Below, in pieces: positions 320 through 43,588 of a stretch of 43,820 nucleotides of DNA. Below the pieces are notes generated by a model. That model saw only the letters and a list, made by a program, of their open reading frames with translations. It was not told the origin of the DNA and did not search any database. A program made the position numbers and the translations under genes. The number at the start of each line of letters is the position of its first letter. The first letter of the stretch is position 1. Origin of the DNA: Enterobacterales bacterium (GTDB lineage Bacteria; Pseudomonadota; Gammaproteobacteria; Enterobacterales; Enterobacteriaceae); assembly GCA_947478475.1 (NCBI GenBank), contig CANJWD010000006.1:1-43820 (forward strand), read 5' to 3'.

Positions 320-489
320 TCTTTTATTTTTTTCCCCGGCATCCGCTTTAAACTGCTCGCTTTAAAATGCTGTTAAAAATGTCTAGCTGGATAGCCCGCT
401 TCATCTCAAAATGAACGGTAAGATTCTGGCTTATCGGGCATTGGCATTTGTTTAGTGTTTATCTGTACACAAATAACCTCAATACACGC

Positions 490-517
490 TTGCAACTTAT
501 CGGAATTGACGTACAAT
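490..517 (+). promoter_or_regulatory. S10 operon promoter (sigma70)
   Basis: A -35 TTGCAA (490-495) and a -10 TACAAT (512-517) are separated by 16 bp. The GCGCGGGCC that follows is GC-rich, typical of promoters subject to stringent control. The arrangement resembles the E. coli S10 promoter. Transcription should start near 524, giving a leader of about 120 nt before rpsJ, shorter than the roughly 172-nt E. coli leader. Confidence 0.75.
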
Positions 518-523
518 GCGCGG

Positions 524-955
<432 letters not shown>

Positions 956-988
956 TCAGGGGCATTGAACGATTGAGAGGTTGCAGCA

Positions 989-1618
989 ATGATTGGTTTA
1001 GTCGGTAAAAAAGTGGGAATGACGCGTATTTTTACTCAGGATGGCATCTCAATCCCGGTAACAGTTATCGAAGTTACGGCAAACCGCGTGACTCAGGTGA
1101 AAGAATTGGCGCACGATGGATATCGTGCCATTCAGGTAACTACCGGCCTTAAAAAGGCAAGCCGTGTCAACAAGCCAGAGGCGGGACATTTTGCCAAAGC
1201 AGGTGTTGAAGCTGGCCGTGGTCTGTGGGAGTTCCGCCTTCCGGAAGATAAAGAATTCATTGTTGGTCAGGCGATTAACGTTGATATTTTCGCGGATGTT
1301 AAAAAAGTGGACGTTACAGGAACATCTAAAGGTAAAGGATTTGCTGGCACTGTAAAGCGCTGGAATTTCCGTACCCAGGATGCAACTCACGGTAACTCTT
1401 TATCTCACCGCGTACCGGGTTCTATCGGTCAGAACCAGACACCGGGAAAAGTGTTTAAGGGCAAAAAAATGGCAGGCCACTTAGGCTGTGAACGTGTCAC
1501 TGTTCAAAATCTGGACATAATACGTGTTGATGCTGAGCGTAATTTGCTGCTGGTCAAAGGCGCTGTGCCGGGGGCAACCGGCGGCAATTTGATCGTTAAA
1601 CCAGCTGTCAAGGCGTAA
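989..1618 (+). CDS. rplC: 50S ribosomal protein L3
   Basis: This 209-residue protein has the same length as E. coli L3. It starts [13 protein letters not shown] and keeps the loop [17 protein letters not shown] that reaches toward the peptidyl-transferase centre; the Gln in this loop is methylated by PrmB in E. coli. L3 is one of the first proteins bound during 50S assembly. The gene lies 33 bp after rpsJ with a GAGAGG ribosome site. Its C-terminal half has small substitutions ([10 protein letters not shown]) against the E. coli form, but nothing looks broken. Confidence 0.98.
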
Positions 1619-1634
1619 CGTCGAGGAGACAGTA

Positions 1635-2236
1635 ATGGAATTGGTAATAAAAGACGCACCAGGTGCGCTGACTGTTTCCGAAACTACCTTCGGGCGTGAT
1701 TTCAATGAAGCGCTGATACATCAGGTTGTTGTTGCTTACGCCGCAGGTGCCCGTCAGGGGACTCGTGCTCAGAAAACACGCGCAGAGGTAACAGGTTCAG
1801 GTAAAAAGCCATGGCGTCAGAAGGGCACAGGCCGCGCTCGTTCAGGTTCGGTCAAAAGCCCAATTTGGCGTTCTGGCGGTGTTACTTTCGCGGCAAAGCC
1901 ACAGGATCACAGTCAGAAAGTTAACAGAAAGATGTACCGTGGTGCTCTGAGAAGCATTTTATCCGAATTAGTACGCCAAGATCGTTTAATCGTTGTCGAG
2001 CAGTTCTCGGTTGCCGCACCTAAGACTAAGTTGCTGGTGCAAAAATTAAAAGAGATGGCTTTGGAAGACGTACTGATCGTGACCGGTGAAATTGACGAAA
2101 ATTTATTCCTGGCAGCACGTAATCTGTACAAAGTTGATGTCCGCGATGCAGCAGATATCAATCCCGTTAGCTTAATAGCCTTCGACAAGGTGGTCATGAC
2201 CGTTGATGCCATCAGGCAGGTTGAGGAGATGCTGGT

Positions 2237-2240
<4 letters not shown>
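1635..2240 (+). CDS. rplD: 50S ribosomal protein L4 (S10 operon autoregulator)
   Basis: This 201-residue protein matches E. coli L4 in length. It includes the extended loop (about residues 40-100, with [20 protein letters not shown]) that lines the peptide exit tunnel. In E. coli L4 also binds the S10 leader to repress its own operon and binds RNase E. GAGGAGA precedes the start. The last four bases overlap the rplW start (ATGA at 2237-2240), so the two are probably translationally coupled. Confidence 0.98.
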
Positions 2241-3383
<1,143 letters not shown>

Positions 3384-3396
3384 AATTAGAGGATAA

Positions 3397-5167
<1,771 letters not shown>

Positions 5168-5168
<1 letters not shown>

Positions 5169-5359
5169 TGAAAGCAAAAGAGCTGCGTGAAAAAAGCGTT
5201 GCAGAGCTGAACAGTGAGCTGCTTAACCTGCTGCGTGAGCAATTTAATTTGCGCTTGCAGGCGGCAGGTGGCCGGCTACAGCAGACGCACCTGTTAAAAC
5301 AAGTGCGTCGTAATGTTGCATTAGTTAAAACTTTACTGACTGAAAAAGTGGGGGCGTGA
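5168..5359 (+). CDS. rpmC: 50S ribosomal protein L29
   Basis: This 63-residue, two-helix protein equals E. coli L29 in length ([15 protein letters not shown]). L29 sits beside L23 at the tunnel exit and contributes to trigger-factor docking. It overlaps rplP by one base and rpsQ by one base, so the three are probably translationally coupled. Confidence 0.97.
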
Positions 5360-5616
5360 TGACTGATAAAATTCGTACTCTTCAGGGTCGTGTCACCAGT
5401 GACAAAATGCAAAAATCCATTGTAGTTGCCATTGAACGTAAAATTAAACATCCGGTTTATGGAAAATACGTTACACGTACAACTAAATTGAATGTTCATG
5501 ATGAGAACAACGCATGCGCTACCGGTGACCTCGTTGAGGTGCGCGAGTGCCGTCCAATATCCAAAACCAAAGCATGGACGCTGGTACGTATTGTAGAGCA
5601 AGCGATTCAGGCATAG
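5359..5616 (+). CDS. rpsQ: 30S ribosomal protein S17
   Basis: This 85-residue protein starts [17 protein letters not shown], as in E. coli (84 residues). It is an OB-fold, early-binding 30S protein contacting 16S helices 7 and 11. A GTG three bases upstream is in frame, but the ATG overlapping the rpmC stop is the conserved start. It is the last gene of the S10 operon; a 185-bp gap with the spc promoter follows. Confidence 0.97.
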
Positions 5617-5660
5617 TTCAGGTATAGAGCGGCTTCCTCAAAATCAGCCATTTTATTTTC

Positions 5661-5691
5661 TCTACCTATATTCCAGAGCTGGTGCTACAAT
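5661..5691 (+). promoter_or_regulatory. spc operon promoter
   Basis: TCTACC (5661-5666) and the -10 TACAAT (5686-5691), followed by GCCGCGCC, match the layout I recall for the E. coli spc promoter (TCTACC ... TATAATGCCGCGCC). The hexamers are about 19 bp apart, so this is a weak -35. Transcription should start near 5698, about 100 nt before rplN. Two short tandem duplications (5704-5735 and 5738-5757) lie in the leader just behind the promoter. Confidence 0.65.
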
Positions 5692-5703
5692 GCCGCGCCT
5701 TGG

Positions 5704-5757
5704 TTTACAGGGATTTTCATTTACAGGGGTTTTCAATGGCCTATTTCGGCCTATTTT
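5704..5757 (+). repeat. Two adjacent short tandem duplications in the spc leader
   Basis: A 16-bp unit TTTACAGGGATTTTCA (5704-5719) is repeated at 5720-5735 with one change. Right after it a 10-bp unit GGCCTATTTC (5738-5747) is repeated at 5748-5757 with one change. Both lie in the untranslated leader of the spc operon and lengthen it. Confidence 0.85.
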
Positions 5758-5789
5758 GGGTCCTGTAATTTAGCTGTAGTTGACATTAG

Positions 5790-6173
<384 letters not shown>

Positions 6174-6183
6174 GGAGTGTAGC

Positions 6184-6498
6184 ATGGCAGCAAAGATCCG
6201 TCGTGATGACGAAGTTATCGTCTTGACCGGTAAAGACAAAGGTAAACGCGGTAAAGTAAAAAGTGTCCTGTCTTCAGGAAAAATTATTGTTGAAGGTATC
6301 AATCTGGTTAAAAAACATCAGAAGCCTGTCCCGGCGATGAATGAACTAGGTGGCATTGTTGAAAAAGAAGCGGCAATCGCAGTTTCCAACCTTGCGCTGT
6401 TCAACGGATCAACCGGTAAGGCTGATCGTGTGGGCTTTAGATTTGAAGAGGGAAAAAAAGTACGTTTTTTCAAATCAACTAGCGAAACTGTCAAGTAA
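6184..6498 (+). CDS. rplX: 50S ribosomal protein L24
   Basis: This 104-residue protein equals E. coli L24 in length. It has the KOW motif near the N-terminus ([17 protein letters not shown]). L24 starts 50S assembly by binding the 5' end of 23S rRNA and sits at the tunnel exit. TAAGGAG precedes the start. The last 16 bases including the stop codon are duplicated immediately downstream (6499-6514). Confidence 0.98.
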
Positions 6499-6514
6499 CG
6501 AAACTATCAAGTAA
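6483..6514 (+). repeat. 16-bp tandem duplication across the rplX stop codon
   Basis: CGAAACTGTCAAGTAA (6483-6498) is the last part of rplX with its stop codon. It is repeated with one change at 6499-6514, so a second copy of the gene tail and stop follows the true one. The protein is unaffected; the rplX-rplE spacer is lengthened by 16 bp. Confidence 0.9.
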
Positions 6515-6528
6515 CCTGGAGTAATATT

Positions 6529-7068
6529 ATGGCGAAACTGCATGATTACTACAAAGACAGCGTAACCAAACAACTGATGTCTCAGTTTGGCTACGGTTCT
6601 GTCATGCAAGTCCCAAGAATAAAAAAGATAACGCTTAATATGGGAGTGGGTGAAGCGGTTGCCGACAAAAAATTGTTGGACCACGCCACAGCAGACCTGG
6701 CAGCAATTTCCGGTCAAAAACCATTTATCACTAAAGCACGCAAATCTGTTGCAGGATTTAAGATCCGTCAGGGTTATCCTATCGGCTGTAAAGTCACTCT
6801 GCGCGGTGTCCGCATGTGGGAATTTTTTGAACGCCTGATTACTATTGCTGTGCCGCGCATCCGTGATTTCCGCGGATTACACGCTAAATCATTTGATGGC
6901 TGGGGTAACTACAGCATGGGAGTGCGCGAGCAGATCATTTTTCCGGAAATCGACTACGACAAAGTTGATCGCATACGTGGTTTGGATATTACCATTACCA
7001 CTTCTGCGCAATCCGACGATGAGGGCCGTGCACTGTTGACTGCCTTTCGCTTCCCATTCCGTAAATAA
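6529..7068 (+). CDS. rplE: 50S ribosomal protein L5
   Basis: This 179-residue protein equals E. coli L5 in length ([17 protein letters not shown]). L5 forms the 5S RNP with L18 and 5S rRNA in the central protuberance and contacts P-site tRNA. The segment [13 protein letters not shown] and the [20 protein letters not shown] signature are intact. CCTGGAG lies upstream of the start. Confidence 0.98.
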
Positions 7069-7082
7069 GGCAGAGTTGACTT

Positions 7083-7388
7083 ATGGCCAAGCAATCATTG
7101 AAGGCGCGTGAGGTAGTGCGCAAAAAACTGGCTGAAAAATTTCGCGCAAAACGTGAAGAACTGAAGATCGTTATCTCAAGTCTCAAATCATCCGATGAAG
7201 ATCGTTGGAATGCAGTGCTCAAGTTACAAACTTTGCCACGTGATTCCAGCCCGTCCCGTCAGCGTAATCGCTGCCGCCAAACTGGCCGGCCGCATGCTTT
7301 CCTACGGAAATTTGGCTTAAGCCGTATTAAGGTTCGCGAAGCCGCGATGCGCGGTGAAATCCCGGGCCTTAAAAAAGCAAGCTGGTAA
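7083..7388 (+). CDS. rpsN: 30S ribosomal protein S14 (zinc-free form)
   Basis: This 101-residue protein equals E. coli S14 in length ([20 protein letters not shown]). It is the form without the CxxC zinc site, as usual in Enterobacterales. The signature [20 protein letters not shown] is present at its C-terminal third. S14 is a late-assembling head protein that contacts S10 and S19. It lies 14 bp after rplE. Confidence 0.98.
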
Positions 7389-7415
7389 TTATCACCAATT
7401 GAATCACGGGAGTAA

Positions 7416-7814
<399 letters not shown>

Positions 7815-7831
7815 TAATCCGGGAGGAAAAA

Positions 7832-8365
7832 ATGTCTCGTGTTGCAAAAGCACCCGTCGTTATTCCTGACGGCGTTGAGGTAAAACTCAGCGGCCAGGTG
7901 ATTTCGGTTAAGGGTAAAAACGGCGAGTTGACACGTACTATACATAGTGGTGTCAACGTGCAGCAAAAAGAAAATGAACTGGTATTCACCCCGCGAGCGG
8001 ACGTTGCAGATGGCTGGACTCAGGCGGGAACCACCCGGGCACTGCTTAACGCAATGGTTATCGGTGTCACTGAAGGTTTTACCAGAAAGTTACAGCTGGT
8101 CGGTGTCGGTTATCGTGCTGCAGTGAAAGACAATGTGGTCAGTCTGGCTTTAGGGTTCTCTCATCCGATCAACCATAAACTGCCAGCAGGTATTACTGTC
8201 GAATGTCCGACCCAAACTGAAATCATACTGAAAGGTGCTGATAAACAGTTAATTGGTCAGGTTGCAGCAGATTTGCGTGCCTACCGTCGTCCTGAACCCT
8301 ATAAAGGTAAAGGTGTCCGTTACGCCGATGAGGTCGTGCGTATCAAAGAGACTAAGAAGAAGTAA
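7832..8365 (+). CDS. rplF: 50S ribosomal protein L6
   Basis: This 177-residue protein equals E. coli L6 in length ([19 protein letters not shown]). It has two similar alpha-beta domains and the C-terminal [18 protein letters not shown] signature. L6 lies near the sarcin-ricin loop and factor-binding site. GGGAGGAAA gives a strong ribosome site. Confidence 0.98.
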
Positions 8366-8374
8366 GGTAATCGC

Positions 8375-8728
8375 ATGGATAAAAAAACAGCTCGTATCCG
8401 TCGTGCAACCCGCACAAGGTGCAAAATCAAAGAACTGGGCGCAACCCGTTTGGTTGTCCACCGTACACCAAGACATATGTATGCTCAGGTTATCGCACCG
8501 AGTGGTTCCGAAGTGCTGGCAGCTGCTTCCACTGTAGAGAAAGTTATTAGTGAAACACTAAAGTATTCGGGGAATAAAGATGCGGCAGCCGCTGTAGGCA
8601 AGGCTATTGCTGAACGCTCGTTGGAAAAGGGCATTAAAGGAGTTTCCTTTGACCGTTCCGGTTTTCAATATCATGGTAGAGTCCAGGCACTGGCGGATGC
8701 TGCCCGTGAAGCTGGCCTTCAGTTCTAA
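8375..8728 (+). CDS. rplR: 50S ribosomal protein L18
   Basis: This 117-residue protein equals E. coli L18 in length ([20 protein letters not shown]). L18 binds 5S rRNA with L5 and brings it to the central protuberance. The [25 protein letters not shown]-terminal signature is recognisable. The gene begins 9 bp after the rplF stop; TAAGGTAA is the ribosome site. Confidence 0.98.
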
Positions 8729-8733
8729 GGTAG

Positions 8734-9243
<510 letters not shown>

Positions 9244-9248
9244 ATAAC

Positions 9249-9428
9249 ATGGTAAAAACTATTAAAGTCACCCAGACACGTAGTGCAATTGGTCGGTTGC
9301 CTAAGCATAAGGCAACGCTGACTGGTTTAGGCCTGCGTCGTATTGGACATACAGTAGAACGGGAAGATACTCCATCGGTACGCGGTATGGTTAATTTGGT
9401 TTCCTATATGGTTAAGGTTGAGGAGTAA
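9249..9428 (+). CDS. rpmD: 50S ribosomal protein L30
   Basis: This is a short gene of 59 codons plus stop, read as [20 protein letters not shown]..., the same length as E. coli L30. The protein is a single small alpha-beta domain that binds 23S rRNA. It sits 5 bp after rpsE and 3 bp before rplO, in the invariant spc order. AAATAAC upstream is a poor ribosome site, so translation is probably coupled to rpsE. Confidence 0.97.
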
Positions 9429-9431
9429 CAG

Positions 9432-9875
9432 ATGCGTTTAAATACTCTCTCTCCGGCAGAAGGATCCAAACGCGCGCCGCAACGCGCCGGCCGTGGGATT
9501 GGATCGGGTTTGGGTAAAACGGGAGGTCGTGGCCATAAAGGTCAGAAATCTCGTTCTGGTGGCGGTGTCCGTCGTGGATTTGAAGGTGGTCAAATGCCTT
9601 TATATCGCCGTTTGCCGAAATTTGGTTTTATCTCTCGTAAAGCGATGGTTACTGCCGAGGTTCGTTTGTCAGAGTTGTCCCGAATGGATGACGATGTCAT
9701 CGATCTCAATGCGCTAAAAGCTGCCAATATCGTCGGGATCCAGATTGAGTTTGTAAAAGTGATGCTTTCTGGTGAAATTGTACGGCCGGTAACAATTCGT
9801 GGCCTGCGAGTCACTAAGGGAGCTCGCAGCGCTATCGAGGCAGCTGGCGGTAAAATTGAGGAAGCAGTAATTTGA
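9432..9875 (+). CDS. rplO: 50S ribosomal protein L15
   Basis: This 147-residue protein is three residues longer than E. coli L15 at the C-terminus (IEEAVI). The glycine- and arginine-rich N-terminal extension ([19 protein letters not shown]) that penetrates the 50S core is present. L15 is a late assembly protein. GAGGAGTAACAG precedes the start. Its stop TGA (9873-9875) overlaps the secY ATG by one base. Confidence 0.98.
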
Positions 9876-11206
9876 TGGCCAGGCAACCAGGGTTAGATTT
9901 TCAAAGTGCTAAAGGCGGGCTCGGTGAACTGAAGCGCAGGCTATTGTTTGTAATCGGTGCGCTGATTGTTTTTCGTGTTGGCTCTTTTATTCCAATCCCT
10001 GGTATTGATGCTGATGTACTGGCTAAATTGCTTGAACAGCAGAAGGGAACCATCATTGATATGTTTAACATGTTCTCTGGTGGTGCGCTCAGTCGCGCGT
10101 CGATCTTTGCTTTGGGTATTATGCCTTACATATCGGCATCAATTATTATCCAGCTGTTAACGGTTGTTCACCCAACGCTGGCAGAAATAAAGAAAGAAGG
10201 GGAAGCGGGTCGCCGTAAAATAAGCCAGTATACCCGTTATGGTACCTTGATCCTGGCGATATTTCAGTCCGTCGGTATCGCTACGGGTTTGCCGAATATG
10301 CCAGGTATGCAGGGGCTGGTAGTAAGTCCTGGGTTTCCCTTCTATTTTACTGCTGTTGTGAGTCTCGTGACCGGGACAATGTTTCTGATGTGGTTAGGTG
10401 AACAGATTACTGAGCGTGGTATCGGTAACGGCATTTCGATCATAATATTTGCGGGTATTGTTGCTGGCCTTCCGCCGGCAGTTGCTCAGACTATCGAGCA
10501 AGCCCGGCAAGGTGAATTGCATTTTTTTCTGCTGTTGCTGGTTGGAGTACTGGTGTTTGCCGTGACTTTCTTTGTCGTGTTCGTTGAACGTGGTCAGCGT
10601 CGTATTGTTGTTAACTATGCCAAACGTCAACAGGGCCGTCGGATTTACGCGGCACAAAGCACACATTTACCATTAAAAGTCAATATGGCGGGTGTTATTC
10701 CAGCGATTTTTGCTTCAAGTATTATTTTATTTCCGGCAACCATTGCATCATGGTTTGGAGGCGGGACCGGCTGGAACTGGCTTACGACAATTTCGATGTA
10801 TCTGCAACCAGGACAACCGCTCTATGTGTTGCTTTATGCCTCTGCAATCATCTTCTTCTGTTTTTTCTATACCGCATTGGTATTTAACCCGCGTGAAACA
10901 GCGGATAACCTGAAAAAATCTGGAGCGTTTGTGCCCGGTATTCGCCCAGGAGAGCAAACAGCGAAATACATTGATAAAGTGATGAGTCGCCTTACATTAG
11001 TGGGTGCGATCTACATTACCTTTATTTGCCTGATTCCGGAATTTATGCGGGATGCGATGAAAGTTCCCTTCTATTTTGGTGGTACTTCGTTGCTGATCGT
11101 AGTGGTTGTTATCATGGACTTTATGGCTCAAGTGCAAACTCAGATGATGTCCAGTCAGTATGAGTCTGTACTGAAAAAAGCAAACCTGAAAGGTTATAAA
11201 CGCTAG
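9875..11206 (+). CDS. secY: Protein translocase subunit SecY
   Basis: This 443-residue inner-membrane protein equals E. coli SecY in length and is nearly identical to it. With SecE and SecG it forms the channel that exports unfolded proteins with SecA and inserts membrane proteins from the ribosome. Ten membrane helices are expected; the plug region follows [11 protein letters not shown], and cytoplasmic loops for SecA and ribosome contact ([12 protein letters not shown], and the [16 protein letters not shown] region) are intact. A TTG three bases upstream is in frame, but the ATG overlapping the rplO stop gives the E. coli start. Confidence 0.98.
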
Positions 11207-11238
11207 TCAGGAATGAGTAACATATACGGAGAGTAAAA

Positions 11239-11355
11239 ATGAAAGTCCGTGCTTCCGTCAGGAAATTGTGTCGTAACTGCAAAGTTATTAAACGCAACGG
11301 AGTTGTTCGCATAATTTGTGACAGTGAACCAAAACATAAGCAGCGGCAAGGCTGA
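11239..11355 (+). CDS. rpmJ: 50S ribosomal protein L36 (zinc-binding form)
   Basis: This short gene encodes 38 residues ([20 protein letters not shown]...), the E. coli length. Cys11, Cys14, Cys27 and His33 form the C3H zinc site, so this is the zinc-binding rather than zinc-free paralog. L36 is the smallest 50S protein. It is the last gene of the spc operon, 32 bp after secY, with CGGAGAG as ribosome site. Confidence 0.97.
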
Positions 11356-11374
11356 CTTATCGTGCAGTATTTTC

Positions 11375-11403
11375 TTGCAAAGTTGGATTAAGCTGGCTAG
11401 ATT
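11375..11403 (+). promoter_or_regulatory. alpha operon promoter
   Basis: The -35 TTGCAA (11375-11380) and the -10 TAGATT (11398-11403) are 17 bp apart. The sequence around them (TTTCTTGCAAAGTTGG and GAGCTGGCTAGATTA in E. coli) is almost unchanged here. It drives rpsM-rpsK-rpsD-rpoA-rplQ. Confidence 0.8.
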
Positions 11404-11437
11404 AACCGGCCAATCTTTTATGTATGACTGCATCACT

Positions 11438-11515
11438 ATTTGAGTATCCTGAAAACGGGCTTTTCAGAATAGTGTTGCTGCGAAATTTATAGGAGTGCAT
11501 AGTGGCCCGTATAGC
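11438..11515 (+). promoter_or_regulatory. S4-binding pseudoknot of the alpha operon leader
   Basis: A hairpin CTGAAAA/TTTTCAG (11449-11455 with 11461-11467) encloses ACGGGC (11455-11460), which is complementary to GCCCGT (11505-11510) in the first codons of rpsM. This gives the nested pseudoknot known from E. coli, where protein S4 binds and traps the 30S subunit to repress the alpha operon. The key pairing bases are all present, so autoregulation by the S4 encoded downstream is likely kept. Confidence 0.75.
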
Positions 11516-11858
11516 AGGCATTAACATTCCTGATCAAAAACATACCGTGATCGCCTTAAGATCGATTTACGGCATTGGTGCTACTCGTTCACAGGCTATA
11601 TGTGCTGCTGCGGGTGTTGCTGAACATGTTAAGATCAGTGAGCTATCTGAAGAACAAATCGAGAAGCTGCGTGACGAAGTTGCCAGATACGTTGTAGAAG
11701 GTGATCTGCGTCGTGAGGTAACCCTAAGCATCAAACGTCTCATGGACCTTGGCACTTACCGTGGTTTACGTCATCGTCGTGGTTTGCCAGTTCGCGGTCA
11801 GCGCACTAAAACCAACGCACGTACCCGAAAGGGTCCGCGTAAACCGATCAAGAAATAA
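11502..11858 (+). CDS. rpsM: 30S ribosomal protein S13
   Basis: This 118-residue protein equals E. coli S13 in length ([21 protein letters not shown]). S13 forms intersubunit bridges B1a and B1b and contacts P-site tRNA with its basic tail ([18 protein letters not shown]). The start is GTG, also used in E. coli, and lies inside the S4-binding pseudoknot. TAGGAGTGC is the ribosome site. It is the first gene of the alpha operon. Confidence 0.98.
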
Positions 11859-11871
11859 TCGGGATGATTGA

Positions 11872-12915
<1,044 letters not shown>

Positions 12916-12940
12916 CGATCAGAACTGAAGAGAGGACACA

Positions 12941-14361
<1,421 letters not shown>

Positions 14362-19538: not shown

Positions 19539-19580
19539 CTTTTCATTTTAAAAACTGTTCTTTTCATTTCAAAAACCGTT
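19539..19580 (+). repeat. 21-bp tandem duplication upstream of the tRNA-Val/Lys promoter
   Basis: CTTTTCATTTTAAAAACTGTT (one base over a 20-mer) at 19539-19559 is repeated at 19560-19580 with two changes. The second copy ends inside the -35 hexamer of the tRNA promoter. The AT-rich units sit where an UP element would bind the polymerase alpha subunit. Confidence 0.85.
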
Positions 19581-19606
19581 GACTCATCGCCAGCTACGCC
19601 TATAAT
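19579..19606 (+). promoter_or_regulatory. Promoter of the tRNA-Val/tRNA-Lys unit
   Basis: A strong sigma70 promoter: -35 TTGACT (19579-19584), a 16-bp spacer and a perfect -10 TATAAT (19601-19606), followed by the GC-rich discriminator GCGACTGC typical of stable-RNA promoters under stringent control. Transcription should begin near 19613, about 14 nt before tRNA-Val. Confidence 0.8.
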
Positions 19607-19626
19607 GCGACTGCAATGTGAGAAGT

Positions 19627-19702
19627 GGGCGATTAGCTCAGTTGGTAGAGCATCTCCTTTACACGGAGGGGGTCATCAGTTCGAGTCTGGTATCGCCCAC
19701 CA
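19627..19702 (+). tRNA. tRNA-Val (anticodon TAC)
   Basis: A 76-nt cloverleaf with acceptor GGGCGAT pairing to ATCGCCC, the anticodon loop TTTACAC (TAC) and an encoded CCA. It corresponds to the valU-valX-valY family; E. coli has three tandem copies before lysV, here only one is present. Confidence 0.97.
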
Positions 19703-19711
19703 CATCTCTTT

Positions 19712-19787
19712 GGGTCGTTAGCTCAGTCGGTAGAGCAGTTGACTTTTAATCAATTGGTCGCAGGTTCGAATCCCGCACGACCCACCA
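19712..19787 (+). tRNA. lysV: tRNA-Lys (anticodon TTT)
   Basis: A 76-nt cloverleaf with acceptor GGGTCGT pairing to ACGACCC, anticodon loop CTTTTAA (TTT) and an encoded CCA. It lies 9 bp after tRNA-Val as in the E. coli valUXY-lysV operon. The phage lysis block begins about 290 bp downstream, so this tRNA could have been an integration target, but no duplicated tRNA 3' end was found. Confidence 0.97.
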
Positions 19788-20078
19788 AGCCATACTGCAA
19801 TCAACTCTAAAACATCATCCCACCCTATTTTAAACAGCACTGCCTGCCATCAAAAATTATTGATAATACTGTTTAGTCGCTGCCAGCTGAGCGATTGACT
19901 TCTGTTGCTTTAATTAACCGTATACATCCCCATCGCCCATCGCCCATCGATATTTATCATATATACCCTGATAAAAAACAGTCTTTCATCTGTCCGATAA
20001 ATCTGTTAATTCCTGATATCCAGCTCGATATCCATTGCGCTGGCTGATACTCCGTTAAAAGTACCGTGAGAAATTATT
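19788..20078. other. Spacer between tRNA-Lys and the phage block
   Basis: About 290 bp with no gene, RNA or clear terminator. It contains a 7-bp tandem repeat CATCGCC (19931-19944, with a partial third copy). The phage antiterminator starts at its end. Confidence 0.6.
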
Positions 20079-20519
20079 ATGCGTAACATTCAATTAGTGC
20101 TGTCCCGGTGGGGTGCCTGGGCACGAGATGATCCTGGAATTGATTACTCACACATTGCGGCTGGTTTTAAGGGGCTGCTACCGGGTAAGAGATGTTGCAT
20201 TGAACCTTGCTGTGATGACGATGGTCTGTGTATTGATAGCGCTGTGAGGCGACTGAAAACAGCTCGTAAGCCACATGAGCTGGAACTCATTCTGCGTCAC
20301 TATGTATACGGCCAGTCGAAATCTTCCATCGCCCTTACGTGGAAGTGCAGTGAACGGGAAATTCGCCGCCAGCTGCAAATTGTGGAAGGGTTTATTGATG
20401 GATGCCTGGCTGTAGCGGGAGTAACGCTGGAAATGGATGAAATACCGCAAATGCACATTGATAAAAAAATCATTGATAAAAAAATACTACCCCGGCCCGA
20501 AAAAAATGTTGTACCTTGA
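20079..20519 (+). CDS. Phage late-gene antitermination protein Q (82/21 type)
   Basis: This 146-residue protein resembles the Q antiterminators of the phage 82/21 family: it starts MRNIQLVLSRWGAWARDD, has IAAGFKGLLPG, a CCDDDGLCID segment, LRHYVYGQSKSSIALTWKCSEREIRRQLQ (helix-turn-helix-like) in pieces, and ends near LEMDEIP. Such proteins load RNA polymerase at the late promoter so it reads through the terminator ahead of the lysis and structural genes. A perfect terminator follows 38 bp later and the lysis genes after that. The C-terminal tail carries an exact in-frame 15-bp tandem duplication (IDKKI twice). It looks intact. Confidence 0.8.
   Translation: MRNIQLVLSRWGAWARDDPGIDYSHIAAGFKGLLPGKRCCIEPCCDDDGLCIDSAVRRLKTARKPHELELILRHYVYGQSKSSIALTWKCSEREIRRQLQIVEGFIDGCLAVAGVTLEMDEIPQMHIDKKIIDKKILPRPEKNVVP
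20456..20485 (+). repeat. Exact 15-bp in-frame tandem duplication in the Q tail
   Basis: CATTGATAAAAAAAT occurs at 20456-20470 and again at 20471-20485. It adds five residues (IDKKI repeated) to the C-terminus of the antiterminator without breaking the frame. Confidence 0.9.
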
Positions 20520-20557
20520 TAGAAGTGGTTGCCGTGTGTAACTGCTTCCCCATTTTT

Positions 20558-20584
20558 AAAGCCCCGCAATTGCGGGGCTTTTTT
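20558..20584 (+). terminator. tR'-like terminator before the lysis genes
   Basis: A 24-bp perfect palindrome AAAGCCCCGCAA/TTGCGGGGCTTT ending in a T run lies just after the Q gene and ahead of the holin. In lambdoid phages this is the terminator that Q allows polymerase to pass. An 11-bp direct repeat CCCCGGCCCGA flanks it at 20490-20500 and 20630-20640. I could not place a convincing late promoter. Confidence 0.85.
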
Positions 20585-20695
20585 ATGTCAATAGTCTGGT
20601 CCGGATAAACTTTACCAACACATTACCCGCCCCGGCCCGACCATTGGAGCTTTTCATTTTTGATCTTCACGAAGCGAGTAAAGGAGCATTACAAC

Positions 20696-21073
20696 ATGTC
20701 AGAACCGATTTCAGACAATGGTACTGCAATGCTTATGGCTACCGGCGTAACTATTGCTGGTGTGTTATCGGGGGTAGATGCCGGTGTATTGATCGGGGCA
20801 TTCGCTGGGGCTGTCATTTTTGTGCTGTCAGCAACAGAGCTTGTCTTATTCAAAAAAATCATGCTGTTTGGAGTGTCCTTTCTGGCAGGTATTGTTGCCG
20901 CCAGTTTTGCTGCTGACATTATCACAGCTATGACACCAAACAATGTAGAGGCTAAAGATCCGGTTGGTGCTCTGGTTTCTTCAGCAATTGCTGTACGTTT
21001 TTTGATATCGATCAGCAGCAATCCCGCGTCGTTTATTGACCGTTTCAGGCGAGGAGGCAACGATGTTAAATGA
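20696..21073 (+). CDS. Phage holin-like membrane protein
   Basis: This 125-residue protein (MSEPISDNGTAMLMATGVTI) has two to three hydrophobic segments (about residues 12-45, 50-75 and possibly 90-105) separated by short polar turns and a basic tail (DRFRRGGNDVK). It resembles putative holins that precede endolysins in enterobacterial prophages. Holins form inner-membrane lesions that release or activate endolysin. The ATG with AAGGAGC 8 bases upstream was chosen over an in-frame start 36 bases earlier. The end overlaps the next gene by 11 bases. Confidence 0.7.
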   Translation: MSEPISDNGTAMLMATGVTIAGVLSGVDAGVLIGAFAGAVIFVLSATELVLFKKIMLFGVSFLAGIVAASFAADIITAMTPNNVEAKDPVGALVSSAIAVRFLISISSNPASFIDRFRRGGNDVK

Positions 21074-21347
21074 AGTTAATGCAATCGCATGCCTGGTGAT
21101 TGCAGTGCGCTTGTTGGCATATAAACGTCGTGGTGCAGCGCACAATCTGTTGGGGGCATTATTTGCATACGCCCTGATTGTTGCCTGTGGTTCGGTGACG
21201 ATACGTATCATGACCGGTGATTATGCTCACTCTGACTGGTCTGAAATTTTCATCAATATAACAGTAGGCATTGCTGTTATTGCGGCACGCGGAAATATTA
21301 TGCGCCTGATAAGATTTTCACGTATCACCCGACGCCGAAAACTTTAA
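21063..21347 (+). CDS. Second phage holin/antiholin-like membrane protein (3-TM type)
   Basis: This 94-residue protein (MLNEVNAIACLVIAVRLLAY) has three hydrophobic stretches and a strongly basic end (RLIRFSRITRRRKL). It resembles the 3-TM phage holin family found beside a first holin in enterobacterial prophages. GAGGAGGCAACG gives a good ribosome site inside the preceding gene. The overlapping pair could act as holin and antiholin; which does which cannot be told from sequence. Confidence 0.65.
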   Translation: MLNEVNAIACLVIAVRLLAYKRRGAAHNLLGALFAYALIVACGSVTIRIMTGDYAHSDWSEIFINITVGIAVIAARGNIMRLIRFSRITRRRKL

Positions 21348-21424
21348 TCAATATCATTATGGGCACTGCCCGTTGTCACTAAATGCAAAAAATCTTCTGA
21401 TAAAACAGCTAAATGGGTAAAAAC

Positions 21425-22036
21425 ATGACACTGAATCAGTTTCAGCAAGCGGCTGGTATCAATGCTAAGCTGGCCACACGCTGGTATCCACATATCACCA
21501 CAGCCATGCAATTGTTTAATATTGTTACGCCAGCAGCACAGGCGATGTTTATTGCGCAAGCAGGACATGAATCAGCCGGTTTCACCAGAGTGGCGGAGTC
21601 GTTCAATTACACAACGACGGCTCTGTGTAATACCTTTGGCAAATGGATTAGCGAGGATCAGGCTGCAAAATTGGGGCGTACCCAGGACAATCCTGCGCAG
21701 CAGGAAGCTATCGCCAACCTGGTTTACGCAAAGCGTGGTGGTAACAGTGCGGCAGAAGATGGCTGGAAATATCGCGGGCGTGGCCTAATCCAGATAACCA
21801 TGCAAAATAATTATCGGGATTGCGGGCGAGGCTTAAACATCGATCTGGTGGCCAATCCTGATTTGTTGCTGGCAGATGTTAATGCTGCACATTCCGCCGC
21901 GTGGTTCTGGCAGGCGAAGGGCTGCAACGATATGGCTTCCAGCCTGGAGTGGATCACAAAAAAAATTAACGGGGGCTATAACGGCCTTGAAGACAGGCGG
22001 CAGCGCTACCACAAAGCATGTCAGGTGCTGGTATGA
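21425..22036 (+). CDS. Phage endolysin, glycoside hydrolase family 19
   Basis: This 203-residue protein (MTLNQFQQAAGINAKLATRWY) belongs to the chitinase-like GH19 lysozymes used by phages to cleave peptidoglycan. The first catalytic Glu lies in AQAGHESAGF (about residue 49); the core signature GWKYRGRGLIQITMQNNY and the closing NGGYNGLEDRRQRY are intact. An alternative start 12 bases upstream would add MGKN; neither has a good ribosome site, though GGGTA lies before the chosen one. No signal peptide is seen, so release should need the holin. The stop overlaps the Rz start. Confidence 0.85.
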   Translation: MTLNQFQQAAGINAKLATRWYPHITTAMQLFNIVTPAAQAMFIAQAGHESAGFTRVAESFNYTTTALCNTFGKWISEDQAAKLGRTQDNPAQQEAIANLVYAKRGGNSAAEDGWKYRGRGLIQITMQNNYRDCGRGLNIDLVANPDLLLADVNAAHSAAWFWQAKGCNDMASSLEWITKKINGGYNGLEDRRQRYHKACQVLV

Positions 22037-22437
22037 CGTACACAGCCAAATTTTGTGGTGTGCTACTGGTACTGCTGGCGCTGCTGGCATTCACCGCCAG
22101 CCGCTACCAGTCTAAATACCAGGAGACATTACAAACACTTGAACGGGAACAGGCCATTACCCGAAGCCAGGAGAAGGCGCTGGTTGAAATCAGGCGGGCA
22201 GAGATCATTAATCGTGAATTAACAGCAAAGCAGCTGAACCAGGAGCAAATACTGCGACAAAAGGGTTATGATGAAAACAAAAAATTACGCCAGACTCTGG
22301 CGACTGATAACTGTAACGACCGCCAGCTTCCTGATTCCGTTATTGATATCCTGCACCGGCGGGAAAAACCCGATGCAAACCCTGTACCTGCTGCCACCGG
22401 AGCCACTGTTAATAAAGTGCGAAAACTCACATTTTGA
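22033..22437 (+). CDS. Rz-like i-spanin (inner-membrane spanin subunit)
   Basis: This 134-residue protein has an N-terminal membrane anchor (CGVLLVLLALLAFTA) and a long charged coiled-coil region (about residues 28-85), followed by a Rz/LysB-type end with DRQLPDSVIDILHRRE. With an outer-membrane lipoprotein partner, Rz fuses the two membranes in the last lysis step. The ATG overlaps the endolysin stop (ATGA). An out-of-frame Rz1-type lipoprotein is embedded in its second half. Confidence 0.78.
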   Translation: MTYTAKFCGVLLVLLALLAFTASRYQSKYQETLQTLEREQAITRSQEKALVEIRRAEIINRELTAKQLNQEQILRQKGYDENKKLRQTLATDNCNDRQLPDSVIDILHRREKPDANPVPAATGATVNKVRKLTF

Positions 22438-22555
22438 CGGGCTCACCTTCGGTGATGCAGTGGAATTTTTGCACCAGAAACAGCTTGAAAATGATATATG
22501 TGCCTTGCGTATGGAAGCATTGCTTAACTGGAGAGAGTCAGTCGATAAACTCTGA
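22268..22555 (+). CDS. Rz1-like o-spanin lipoprotein, nested in Rz
   Basis: This 95-residue frame overlaps the end of Rz in another frame, the usual Rz/Rz1 (P2 lysB/lysC) design. It starts MMKTKNYARLW, has a hydrophobic signal and a lipobox LISC with Cys29 as the lipidation site, then PPEPLLIKCENSHFDGLTFGDAVEFL, recalling P2 LysC. The mature lipoprotein should sit on the outer membrane and pair with Rz. A second ATG three bases later is equally possible as start. Confidence 0.75.
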   Translation: MMKTKNYARLWRLITVTTASFLIPLLISCTGGKNPMQTLYLLPPEPLLIKCENSHFDGLTFGDAVEFLHQKQLENDICALRMEALLNWRESVDKL

Positions 22556-22631
22556 CATGGTCGGAATTTCTTAAAAACAGCTCATACTGCACCAAAAGTG
22601 GGCTCAAAGCGCTCGTTTTACCCTCGTTTTA

Positions 22632-23636
22632 TTAGGCTCCTTTCGTTAAACCAAAATGCTGGTAAGCATGGGCGGTGGCAATACGGCCGCGCGGAGTACG
22701 TTGAATAAAACCCTGCTGGATCAGGTAGGGTTCCAGCACATCTTCAATAGTCTCTCGTTCCTCACCAATGGCCGCCGCCAGATTATCCAGCCCGACCGGA
22801 CCGCCCATAAATTTATCGATCACTGCCAGTAATAGTTTACGGTCCATATAATCAAAACCTTCACTATCCACATTCAGCATATCCAGCGCTTGTATGGCGA
22901 CTGCACTGTTAATGGCACCCTGTGCCCTTACTTCAGCAAAATCTCGTACCCGCCGCAGCAGGCGGTTAATGATTCTGGGCGTCCCCCGTGAGCGGCAGGC
23001 AAGCTGGCGTGCACCATCTGCCGTAAGCTCCAGACCCAGACAGCGTGCACTGCGGGCAACAATTTTTTCGAGATCCGCCACCTGATAAAACTCAAGGCGC
23101 TGCACAATACCGAAACGATCACGCAGTGGTGAAGTCAGAGAACCGGCGCGAGTGGTTGCTCCAATTAAGGTAAACGGGGGTAAATCCAGCTTAATGGAAC
23201 GCGCTGCTGGCCCTTCACCAATCATAATATCCAGCTGGTAATCTTCCATGGCCGGATAGAGGATCTCTTCAACGACAGGCGATAAACGGTGGATCTCATC
23301 AATAAACAGCACATCATGCGCTTCCAGGTTTGTGAGCATGGCAGCGAGATCCCCGGCTTTTTCCAGCACCGGGCCGGAGGTCGTGCGTAAATTGACTTGC
23401 ATTTCATTGGCGACAATGTGTGCCAGCGTTGTTTTTCCTAATCCTGGCGGGCCAAAAATCAGCACGTGATCCAGTGCGTCACCACGCTGCCTGGCTGCCT
23501 GAATGAAAATCGCCATTTGTTCACACACATGGGACTGACCCACGTACTCTCGTAGTAATTTAGGGCGAATCGCGCGGTCAATGACGTCTTCTTCCTGAAT
23601 GAGCTCCGTCGAAATCAGGCGATCGGCTTCTATCAT
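22632..23636 (-). CDS. ruvB: Holliday junction branch migration ATPase RuvB
   Basis: This 334-residue AAA+ motor is two residues shorter than E. coli RuvB. It drives Holliday-junction branch migration with RuvA. Walker A is [11 protein letters not shown] (about residues 62-72), Walker B is FIDEIH (near 113), sensor and arginine-finger regions [18 protein letters not shown] are present, and a winged-helix domain closes the protein. Transcription is ruvC-ruvA-ruvB. Its 3' end lies only 76 bp from the end of the phage Rz1 gene. Confidence 0.97.
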
Positions 23637-40299: not shown

Positions 40300-42303
40300 T
40301 CACACCGGGATGGATTTTTGAGTGACTTCCGTGCGGGCCGAATGCCGCATTGCAAGTGCATCGGTCATCAGGCGCATGCAACCCTGTAATAAATGCTGCT
40401 GCTCAGGCAGCATCAGCTGGTGCAAATTAGCAGGCTCAATAGCCAGTACGCCCCATGTTTGCCTGGATGCCCGCAGCGGGTGCAGTTGATAAGGCAAGCC
40501 TGCCAGGGTGTCCGTACCCGCTCCTGCTGCGATACCCGTATCAAAACTCCAGCGGGCGATAGCGCTGTCAACCGATAAGACTTTGCTATGCTCCACCTGA
40601 ATAATGTGTAATTGTCCATCCTCCTGTGGCAGCAATAACGCGCTTTTCGCGTGAAAATTATGGGAAAAAAACTGGAGACTCATTTTGGCAATGTCGTGGA
40701 CCGTCAGTGCACGGTTCAACCCGCTGGACATCTCATACAGGTGCCTGGCACACTGTTCATGATAGCGGGCAGTGCGGGCCTGGTATTGTAATCTGGTAAT
40801 GATGCAAGCCACCACCAGGTTTACTGTCAGCATCACTCCCATGGTTATCCAGTAGTTCACATTTTCCACGGCTGCCAGACTATGGGGCGGGCCAATAAAC
40901 AGAGTAAAACTGATGGTGTTAATCACACTGGCCAGCACTGACGGCAACAGGCCGTAAAATAGCGCTACACCCGCACCGCTAAGTAGGGCGATCATCAATA
41001 GCGTGACTGCTTCAACAGCAGAGAAAGCCTGCAAGAGGAGTAGCGTGAGCGGTATACACTGGCCAATGGCAACAGCACAGCCGCAGAGTGATACAGTGCC
41101 AGTCCGTGAGTGCTTTTCTTTACTGGCGGGAGAATCAGGGCTGTTTTCTGAGGCGACGATAATCAGATCGATATCGGGGCTGAGTTTCCCAAGCCGCGCG
41201 GTAAAATCACTGCGCCAGCGAAAGCCGTGCTCAATACGGCGGCCAGTAACAATTGTTGCCAAATTTTTTTCGCGGGCATAGCGCAGCACCGCGCGTTCTT
41301 CTGAAACGTCTGCAAGCACTGCTGTTTCTGCTCCTAATTCCTGAGCCAGTCGTAACGCCTGTAAAATGGCCTGGCGTTTTGCGGGCGGCAACCGCTGGAG
41401 GCGAGGCGTTTCTACACAGACGGCATACCATATACTGCCCAGTTTTGCTGCGATCCGCGCGGCGGCACGCACTATTTTGTCGTTATTATTCTGGTGGCCA
41501 ATACACAACACCATAGCATCCCGGGTGTGCCAAATTCGATCCAGTTTTTTTTCCTTGCGAAAGGTGCACATTTGCTCGTCTACTCTGTCAGCAGTACGGC
41601 GTAATGCCAGCTCACGCAGAGCAATCAGATTACCTTTACGGAAAAAATGCTCAATGGCACGTTCAGCCTGGCCGGCAATATAAATTTTTCCTTCGCTGAG
41701 CCGTTGCCGTAAATCATCAGGGGGTAAATCTACCAGGACCACCTCTGTTGCTTCATCAAACATAAAATCGGGCACAGTTTCATATATTCTGACTCCAGTG
41801 ATACCGCCTACCACATCATTCAGGCTTTCCAGGTGCTGAACGTTAATAGTCGTGAACACATCAATACCGTGCTCAAGCAGTGCTTCAACATCCTGCCAGC
41901 GTTTAGGATGACGCGAACCTCTGATATTACTGTGGGCCAGTTCATCGATTAAAATCAGTGCCGGGCGGCGCGCCAGCGCTGCGTCCACATCGAATTCCTT
42001 GTACTGACGATGATCCACTGGCAAGCGTTTTAGCGGCAGTAAGGTTAAGCCATCAAGCAGTGCCGCGGTTTCATTACGGCCATGTGTTTCTGCCACTCCG
42101 ACGATAACGTCAACACCCTGAGCACGCAGTCGCCGGGCCTCCTGTAACATGGCACATGTTTTACCGACACCCGCGCAAGCCCCAAAAAAAATTTTCAGTT
42201 TGCCACGAGATTGCGCCGTGGTAATAGCCAGCAGGGCATCGGGATCTGGCCTGTCCGGTTCTCTATCCAGCGGTTTTTTATCCAGCGGTTTTTTATCCAG
42301 CAT
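40300..42303 (-). CDS. kdpD: KdpD-like potassium sensor lacking its kinase domain
   Basis: This 667-residue protein matches the first three-quarters of E. coli KdpD (894). Domains: the cytoplasmic KdpD N-domain with Walker A GACAGVGKT (41-49) and LILIDELAHSN, a Usp domain (about 245-370), four membrane helices (about 400-510), and a GAF domain (about 520-655, ending in LAIEPANLHQLMLPEQQHLL). It stops soon after, at QKSIPV, before the HisKA and ATPase domains, so the phospho-accepting His is missing. No kinase remnant or kdpE follows. The N-terminus has a 15-bp triplicate (LDKKP). It cannot act as a normal histidine kinase; a signalling role through the N-domain remains possible. Confidence 0.93.
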   Translation of the reverse strand: MLDKKPLDKKPLDREPDRPDPDALLAITTAQSRGKLKIFFGACAGVGKTCAMLQEARRLRAQGVDVIVGVAETHGRNETAALLDGLTLLPLKRLPVDHRQYKEFDVDAALARRPALILIDELAHSNIRGSRHPKRWQDVEALLEHGIDVFTTINVQHLESLNDVVGGITGVRIYETVPDFMFDEATEVVLVDLPPDDLRQRLSEGKIYIAGQAERAIEHFFRKGNLIALRELALRRTADRVDEQMCTFRKEKKLDRIWHTRDAMVLCIGHQNNNDKIVRAAARIAAKLGSIWYAVCVETPRLQRLPPAKRQAILQALRLAQELGAETAVLADVSEERAVLRYAREKNLATIVTGRRIEHGFRWRSDFTARLGKLSPDIDLIIVASENSPDSPASKEKHSRTGTVSLCGCAVAIGQCIPLTLLLLQAFSAVEAVTLLMIALLSGAGVALFYGLLPSVLASVINTISFTLFIGPPHSLAAVENVNYWITMGVMLTVNLVVACIITRLQYQARTARYHEQCARHLYEMSSGLNRALTVHDIAKMSLQFFSHNFHAKSALLLPQEDGQLHIIQVEHSKVLSVDSAIARWSFDTGIAAGAGTDTLAGLPYQLHPLRASRQTWGVLAIEPANLHQLMLPEQQHLLQGCMRLMTDALAMRHSARTEVTQKSIPV
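42256..42300. repeat. In-frame 15-bp triplicate at the kdpD start
   Basis: Units at 42256-42270, 42271-42285 and 42286-42300; the last two (CGGTTTTTTATCCAG on the plus strand) are identical and the first differs at two positions. On the coding strand this gives LDKKPLDKKPLDREP right after the initiator Met, absent from E. coli KdpD. Confidence 0.93.
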
Positions 42304-42311
42304 AAACGGCC

Positions 42312-42902
42312 TTACGGTTGCAGTGTGGTGTGTTTGTCCAGTGCCATATTCAAGGCCAGCACATTCACGACAGGCTCTGCTAAAAATGTTATGCCCGCTT
42401 GTTGCGTGTGATACCCGATGAGCTGTTCTACTGTGGAAAGCGGGATTTGGCGTGCTGCCGCCACCCTTGCTGCCTGGTAGTGCGCGGCGGCAGGTGAAAT
42501 ATGTGGATCGAGCCCACTGGCGGAGGCGGTCACTAAATCAACCGGTATTGCTGCCACAGCAGAATGGGCCTGCTGTAATTTTTGTACCCGCTGGCTTAGG
42601 GTATGAGCCAGTATCGGGTTCGAGAGTGCCAGGTTGCTTCCTCCGGATGCCAGGGCGTCGTAAGGCAGCGGCTGTGTTGCTGACGGGCGGCTCCAAAAAT
42701 AGTGAAGCTGGCTAAACTGCTGGCCGATCAGGGCAGAACCTACCCGCTTATTATCCCGTACCACCAGCGAACCCTCAGCCTGCGGACGAAAAATAATCCG
42801 GGCCAGACCCGTTGTCAGCAGGGGATAAGCGATTCCGGTGATAAGTGTCAGTATTATCAATAAACGCAGCGCAGGCATGAAAGTGCTCATGGATGTGGTC
42901 AT
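42312..42902 (-). CDS. kdpC: Potassium-transporting ATPase subunit KdpC
   Basis: This 196-residue protein (E. coli 190) has one N-terminal membrane helix (LRLLIILTLITGIAYPLLT) and the periplasmic/cofactor part with GSALIGQQFSQLHYFWSRPSA, SGGSNLALSNP and VELVTASASGLDPHISP-like text. KdpC stabilises KdpB and helps nucleotide binding in the high-affinity K+ pump KdpFABC. kdpD starts 8 bp later. Upstream, instead of kdpB, is an IS200/IS605-type remnant whose frame ends over the kdpC start (ATGA). A start 12 bases later (MSTFMPAL) fits E. coli better; neither has a strong ribosome site. Confidence 0.93.
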   Translation of the reverse strand: MTTSMSTFMPALRLLIILTLITGIAYPLLTTGLARIIFRPQAEGSLVVRDNKRVGSALIGQQFSQLHYFWSRPSATQPLPYDALASGGSNLALSNPILAHTLSQRVQKLQQAHSAVAAIPVDLVTASASGLDPHISPAAAHYQAARVAAARQIPLSTVEQLIGYHTQQAGITFLAEPVVNVLALNMALDKHTTLQP

Positions 42903-43588
42903 AGATGTGATATTTCCTGTTTTAAGGCGGGCGGCAGGAACAGGCGTGAACCACTCCACCCAAACGGCCAGGCCGCTATGGATGGAGCTTCTGCAACCCG
43001 TAGGCCGCATTCTAAAGCGAGCACATTGACTCGCCTGGGCTGGTACACACAGCCCTTATCAGCTAAATCTTTTACAAAATCATCGCCGATTTCTTTTCGA
43101 AGAATATTGATGGCACCATTCACATCAGCATTGATAATGTGTCCGCTAGATGTTACATATAATCCGCGTTTTTTACGTCTGCCTGAGAATGTTTTTTCTC
43201 CAAGTTCACCATAATTGGGTATAGGGTCGCAATCCAGTGCGCTGGCTTTACTCGTGTAACTTTCTTCTCTCACAATGACAGCAATTCCAATTGCAGCCGC
43301 TTTATATTGAATCATCTCAATCAGTCTGGCATGAGGAATACTGACAAATTTCTGGTTATTTACTTTTCCGATATTAATGGATTTTTTCCACTCCGGGTTA
43401 TGACCAATAACTACTGTTCCTGAATTTGCCATCAAGGCGTGATCAATAACGAAACGACTTACTTTATGGAGATAATCATTTATCCAGCATAATCGTCTGA
43501 CCGATTTACTCTTAAGGTGGCGATTTTTACCATTAGACCTCAAAACTGCACAATCTTTGTTGTACTTTGCATTGACTGACTTAATCAT
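42899..43588 (-). pseudogene. TnpB (IS200/IS605 OrfB) C-terminal remnant, cut by an IS30 element
   Basis: This frame of 229 codons holds the C-terminal part of a TnpB RNA-guided nuclease/transposon protein: NNQKFVSIPHARLIEMIQYKA, the RuvC-II Glu region VREESYTSKASALD, RGLYVTSSGHIINADVNGAI with the RuvC-III Asp, and QPRRVNVL. The N-terminal half with the RuvC-I Asp is missing because IS30-type DNA begins at about 43590. The second zinc-finger Cys pair is not seen. The true C-terminus is probably near NVLALECG; the rest reads through the element end. It cannot be an active nuclease. Confidence 0.8.
42954..42987 (-). other. Right-end hairpin of the IS200/IS605-type element, possible omegaRNA end
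   Basis: CTCCATCC/GGGTGGAG (8 bp with one G-T pair) encloses a second palindrome CGGCCTGGCCG. It lies just beyond the conserved end of TnpB, where these elements carry the imperfect palindrome recognised by TnpA and where the omegaRNA 3' part is encoded. Confidence 0.5.

Follow-up and report, generated by a model that had tools for sequence, protein, structure and literature searches.

The stretch of DNA analysed here, 43,820 bp long and hereafter called the window, is the entire contig C6 of an Enterobacterales genome (G000), and at positions 20079–22555 it carries a phage-type lysis cassette headed by a gene for a Q antiterminator. An earlier note, made from the sequence alone, had described a complete cassette at this position, and matches to Pfam and PHROGs, together with a terminator stem, bear this out in all named parts: a PF06530-type Q, a terminator, two holin-family proteins, a GH19 endolysin and nested Rz/Rz1 genes follow each other on the plus strand, in phage order, and the frames of all six genes are open. 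Q (20079–20519; 146 amino acids) matches PF06530 with an E-value of 3.9e-41 as well as phrog_79, and gives a weak match over residues 8–90 (E 3e-4) to the solved Q of phage 21 (PDB 6p18 and 6jnx). After a gap of 176 bp come holin-family protein 1 (20696–21073, with an approximate start; 125 amino acids counted from the ATG; PF16931 and phrog_198) and holin-family protein 2 (21063–21347; 94 amino acids; PF05449 and phrog_217), each with several hydrophobic segments. The GH19-type endolysin (21413–22036; 207 amino acids) matches PF00182 and phrog_181 (E 1.7e-81), and is followed by the inner-membrane spanin Rz (22033–22437, start again approximate; phrog_214), which has a single, N-terminal hydrophobic segment and scores 25.1 bits against PF10828, slightly short of the 26.6-bit cut-off. 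The outer-membrane spanin Rz1 (22268–22555; PF23793 LysC and phrog_456) lies inside Rz in a different reading frame, and its hydrophobic N-terminal stretch ends in LISC, which reads by eye as a putative lipobox. That six genes arranged as in a phage match six families for lysis or antitermination is, on these assignments, not a product of chance. A perfect tandem duplication of 15 bases within the 3′ end of Q (20456–20485) repeats an IDKK motif in the tail of the protein.

The flanks are also those that the earlier note had named. To the left lies tRNA-Lys(ttt) (19712–19787, plus strand), the last ancestral gene of the gltX side, behind a tRNA-Val that ends at 19702, and this block of gltX, tRNA-Val and tRNA-Lys stops 291 bp before Q. 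To the right, an aspS-to-ruvB block begins with ruvB (22632–23636, minus strand), the 3′ end of which faces Rz1 across the 76 bp between the end of Rz1 (22555) and the ruvB stop codon (22632), and the ancestral neighbour of which, znuB, is gone. We read the flanking genes as housekeeping genes, and the base composition of the cassette is close to that of its host (47.7% compared with 47.1% G+C).

With its holins, its endolysin and its two spanins, the cassette has the components of a type 10 secretion system (T10SS; PMC10847048), and such a system would free a cargo, for example a chitinase or a toxin, through lysis of a subset of cells. However, no cargo gene was found in the Q–holin gap, in the cassette or in its other gaps (cargo families were not searched across G000), whereas the record of phage APSE-7 has annotated toxin cassettes in that slot; the flanks look like housekeeping genes and control would be by a phage Q. 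We therefore regard secretion of this type as a most unlikely function for the cassette.

Control region around Q

A strong sigma-70-like promoter (19579–19606, plus strand), agreeing with the consensus at 11 of 12 positions, precedes tRNA-Val and tRNA-Lys, in a region where we found four promoter-like sites against 5.7 expected from shuffling. It is a possible source of read-through transcription for Q, and the terminator scan gave only one terminator-like site, a weak one (19873–19898), between tRNA-Lys and Q. Behind Q stands an apparently diverged copy of a late promoter/leader block common to prophages with PF06530-type Q (20512–20551, plus strand), which holds an 11-pair hairpin (20522–20548), and then a tR′-like intrinsic terminator (20558–20586, plus strand) with a T tail and a stem of ten pairs, seven of them G-C (20558–20581), which Q would need to override. 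By eye, CCCCGGCCCGA stands on either side of this terminator, at approximately 20490–20500 and 20630–20640.

The block (window 20490–20551) is strongly conserved, with a core of GATAAGAGTGGT or GTTAAGAGTGGT, and is frequently found behind a GCG-N3-CGC-AAAA stretch. In other prophages with a PF06530-type Q it occurs either ahead of the holins or in the stretch that separates Q from the late terminator (L018, L051, L057, L082, L130, L131 and others). Loci that had been fetched by an exact block match are a biased sample, and the comparison was made on 20 Q-bearing loci that had not been fetched via the block itself. For one of these, APSE-7 (L129), the available stretch contains no credible copy, the best match having three mismatches, and the other 19 gave 12 distinct blocks, with no mismatch to the 12-base core in nine and one mismatch in three. 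The core in the window has two mismatches and is the most diverged of the 13 distinct copies. A best match of two or fewer mismatches was also obtained in 39 of 200 trials with shuffled 5-kb sequence, so that the window copy is believable by its place, one base past the Q stop codon as in several other loci, and not by its score alone. Among 61 distinct contexts of exact block matches, 44 have a Q-like open reading frame (ORF) within the preceding 900 bases.

We do not claim a conserved RNA hairpin in the block, as the folds of 20 distinct blocks gave no common structure. A search of Rfam for a family covering the Q-terminator leader gave nothing at the gathering score in the window, where there were only sub-threshold matches, nor at the same place in six related loci, the matches in those loci being three tRNAs and STnc100, the last in L130 approximately 0.6 kb past the end of the Q gene. 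In addition, a full-text literature search for the 11-letter core yielded nothing related. Q reportedly binds between the −35 and −10 elements of the late promoter and uses a pause element that resembles a −10 element and lies among the earliest bases of the transcript (PMC6606751); neither feature could be assigned in the window.

Related prophages and searches for other phage genes

Relatives of the endolysin, taken at an E-value of at most 1e-20, are encoded in 76 of 392 sampled genomes of the family, G000 included, and we compared the 19-kb surroundings of 18 endolysin places. The closest layout belongs to a prophage (L047) in another genome, G269, which has the identical gene order from Q to Rz1 and identities to the window of 60% for Q, 38% for holin 1, 61% for the endolysin, 28% for Rz and 37% for Rz1, its holin 2 having been identified through phrog_217. 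L047 differs from the window in that it also carries early-region, terminase, portal and head genes: repressor, anti-repressor, O-like replication and HNH genes stand before Q, and after Rz1 come a theta-like gene, phrog_513, terminase, portal and head genes, so that in this fuller relative the module continues into packaging and head genes. More distant relatives were found in IMG/VR, where 45 loci have an endolysin relative of 43–62% identity, and among GenBank phages, where 40 records have 60–80% DNA identity covering at most 22% of the stretch and where the protein matches, all below 60% identity, come from 112 records for Q and 119 for holin 1. A search of viral contigs for Q relatives with degenerate patterns returned eight stretches, none of them a relative. 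Because of the layout of L047, the endolysin relatives in IMG/VR and the distant GenBank matches, we take the arrangement to be a standard lambdoid-type late region. Judged by its gene order and by its continuation in the fuller relative, the cassette is the lysis module of a (defective) lambdoid prophage.

The G269 prophage serves as the type specimen of this arrangement but was rejected as a direct parent, since its endolysin lies approximately 41 kb from ruvB and both genes are encoded on the minus strand, unlike the converging orientation of cassette and ruvB in the window. The interval in G269 contains other phage genes and then host genes, as read by eye from the translations.

The earlier note had stated that no other phage gene lies nearby. 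When 31 ORFs of L047 and 28 of L127, sets that comprise the best-matching prophage plus its neighbourhood and so some host genes, were compared with the window at an E-value of 0.01, only four matches were obtained, namely Q, holin 1, the endolysin and Rz. This comparison and a reading of the translations, made without a PHROGs scan of every ORF, revealed no phage gene in the rest of the window, and to that extent the statement holds. Likewise, when the two spacers of the cassette, 291 bp from tRNA-Lys to Q and 76 bp from Rz1 to ruvB, were compared with 195 loci by blastn, no phage remains were recognized; the only match, of 26 bases (E 0.042, in two loci covering one place), was taken as chance.

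Structural genes elsewhere in G000, for which the earlier note had proposed a search, were sought as three types of terminase and one portal family, together with a second endolysin; capsid, tail and repressor families were not covered. Searches with PF03237, PF03354 and PF04860 were empty, although the same searches were positive in six, three and four, respectively, of 14 control genomes, and the L047 terminase protein also gave no match, in a search without a positive control. The endolysin is present in a single copy. The terminase and portal of a functional prophage were thus not found, which fits the loss of the rest of the phage. It might be supposed instead that the remaining prophage sits on another contig, parted from its lysis module by assembly or by rearrangement: the genome is in 100 contigs and 97% complete, rearrangement at this site is real, and a tyrosine recombinase domain is encoded on contig C51. 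The empty terminase and portal searches, as far as they reached, and the lack of any L047 protein match beside znuB in the 20 kb of contig C15 examined make this very improbable. The recombinase (L065 10664–11230), which is open, was the only match to PF00589 in G000, where no second one, such as would form a XerC/XerD pair, was matched; the other ORFs of C51 are mostly housekeeping genes as read by eye.

Site of the cassette and host genome

The host genome comprises 1,629,196 bases in 100 contigs, with no contamination, and is the only member of its own genus among the genomes compared. By RuvB, five genomes belonging to a single other genus come closest among the 392 family members sampled, with 89–90% identity and sizes of 3.8–5.0 Mb, and because of this difference in size we call G000 reduced, in agreement with the earlier note; that its bearer is an insect symbiont is a mere guess.

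The site was compared in eight chosen genomes, namely G269, five from the nearest genus and two from the one after it. In all eight, ruvB adjoins znuB and znuC (with one transporter gene intervening in four), and in none did we find ruvB or a cassette gene at the gltX locus, with the limit that one locus (L124) reaches its contig edge before tRNA-Lys. In G000, by contrast, znuB is on contig C15, where its 3′ end faces a flagellar-type gene that reads as fliR in translation, so that the cassette lies exactly at a rearrangement breakpoint. The junction of the gltX–tRNA block with the aspS-to-ruvB block, seen in this one assembly, is thus shown as a breakpoint of the chromosome, an assembly error at the junction being possible. 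The picture in the earlier note, with tRNA-Lys and ruvB flanking a single site from which the phage was cut out, needs revision: in none of the eight relatives do these flanks adjoin each other, and simple excision between them was rejected accordingly. A further mark of a functional prophage, an attachment repeat with an integrase at the ends, was not found either, and no repeat of the tRNA-Lys end occurs in 19600–22700. Next to znuB, at 400–13806 of the examined part of C15 (L204), the translations read as an open flagellar export and motor operon, and flagellar genes in a reduced genome of 1.63 Mb may be of interest in themselves.

Origin, age and possible use

We consider it probable that the cassette is an ordinary and young remnant: the late lysis module, observed here with its gene order, of a lambdoid prophage from which, as we infer, everything else has been lost. 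Q expressed by transcription from upstream would, in the parent phage, load at the late promoter that directly follows the Q gene, and RNA polymerase would then pass the terminator at 20558–20586, switching on holins, endolysin and spanins as one transcript. Going by their families, the holins would permeabilize the inner membrane, the endolysin would cut peptidoglycan and the spanins would fuse the membranes. That the frames are still open would follow from a loss that is recent relative to the pace of point mutations and small indels. Across the 2,236 coding bases, approximately 5% of all substitutions would disrupt a start or stop codon, and with 0 to 0.2 indels assumed per substitution the expected disruptions amount to 1.1–4.7 per 1% of neutral divergence, so that the probability of zero breaks drops to 5% at between 2.7% (no indels) and 0.64%. 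An unbroken module is therefore plausible (P > 0.05) up to approximately 0.6–2.7% divergence, and was either freed within that span or is under selection. Elsewhere in the window (40300–43588), kdpD ends after 667 codons and is open up to there, but has no kinase domain (its only Pfam matches are KdpD, DUF4118 and GAF); kdpC is whole, with an overlapping TnpB-type fragment upstream. As this kdpD is open yet probably useless, an open frame is not by itself a sign of use in G000.

An alternative, that the host has domesticated the module and keeps Q and cassette for cell-wall upkeep, vesicle control or partial self-lysis in the manner of DLP12 or Alp, can point to those precedents (PMC7918800; PMC7969949), to the open frames and to the residues kept. 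Of the columns conserved among distinct homologues, the window keeps 22 of 23 in Q (eight homologues), 10 of 10 in holin 1 (22), 5 of 5 in holin 2 (21), 34 of 34 in the endolysin (38, one row, L008, having been excluded for an internal stop) and 14 of 15 in Rz1 (seven); in Rz, where two distinct homologues were too few for a judgement, 32 of 107 columns are kept. Of the 25 polar endolysin columns that at least 95% of 77 homologues share, 24 are kept, including two invariant glutamates. Conservation of this degree is usual in a working protein and no less so in one freshly freed from selection, and youth explains the open frames just as well. Moreover, the site has no counterpart in the eight relatives, the late block is the most diverged of its 13 distinct copies, the Rz1 copy is the second worst of eight, and endolysin residue 78, arginine in 74 of 77 homologues, is tryptophan in the window. 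Domestication is, in our view, unlikely.

Some observations nevertheless weigh against an idle remnant. The window keeps 85 of 87 family-conserved residues (Rz not judged), as selection would also give, and is not an outlier among its homologues, ranking from the worst 6th of 9 for Q, 9th of 23 for holin 1, 7th of 22 for holin 2 and 12th of 39 for the endolysin. Six open genes, both spanin frames included, are slightly beyond what such a remnant would lead one to expect unless it is young, and the age bound depends on the assumed indel shares. In addition, no attachment-site repeat was found near tRNA-Lys (19600–22700).

For the remnant of a lambdoid prophage, we think that there is probably no kept use today because the late block is diverged, Q has been left without the phage genes that preceded it and the cassette contains no cargo gene. 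Free production of Q together with a working late promoter would put the cell at risk of lysis, and this argues for a weak or dead switch. The earlier note had offered two readings, of which very recent loss of the rest of the phage fits L047, the empty searches of G000 and the bound of 0.6–2.7%, whereas a kept use such as controlled lysis found no positive evidence, given the gap without cargo, the eight relatives without a counterpart and the diverged block. In its most specific form, a minimal Q-gated self-lysis switch behind the promoter of a tRNA operon, kept by a reduced and probably host-restricted bacterium to lyse some of its cells, a kept use is quite improbable. If idle, the cassette would give a clear view of the piecemeal reduction of a prophage within a genome that is itself shrinking, and of how pieces of phage can come to mark points of rearrangement. 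If it is kept, we would have here a natural lysis switch of very small size, gated by an antiterminator, with which one could test directly whether reduced bacteria release products to their host by lysis. Among the papers listed in literature searches, no title or abstract opening dealt with this locus, which is not proof of absence.

Judging by the title of a study, the lysis module of the Escherichia coli K-12 prophage DLP12 is reportedly controlled by a Q-like factor. DLP12 resembles the present locus in that a lambdoid holin, an endolysin and two spanins are intact in a defective prophage, but it retains much of the prophage genome and its effects on vesicles and the cell wall have been tested (PMC7918800), whereas here Q and the lysis genes are all that was found, and they are known from sequence. 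The window agrees with phage 21 in the general layout of Q, late promoter and terminator, although the direct-repeat binding element described for that phage (PMC6606751) was not identified in it. In the T10SS (PMC10847048), holin, endolysin, i-spanin and o-spanin likewise occur outside a phage, and this gene content is found here too, but the genes there are transcriptionally coupled to cargo, in contrast with a cassette without a cargo gene and under phage Q control.

The Alp system of Pseudomonas aeruginosa shares with the window an antiterminator at a promoter and a terminator before lysis genes with a putative holin and anti-holin, and its authors think a prophage origin likely (PMC7969949). 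AlpA reportedly lacks sequence homology to lambda Q or other antiterminators, and Alp has its own DNA-damage repressor, AlpR; no repressor-like ORF adjoins Q in the window, where gltX and the tRNA genes lie upstream (the rest of G000 was not searched for one). In the insect symbiont Sodalis glossinidius, a prophage described as uninducible reportedly keeps a functional lysis cassette along with genes for capsid and packaging (PMC3091646).

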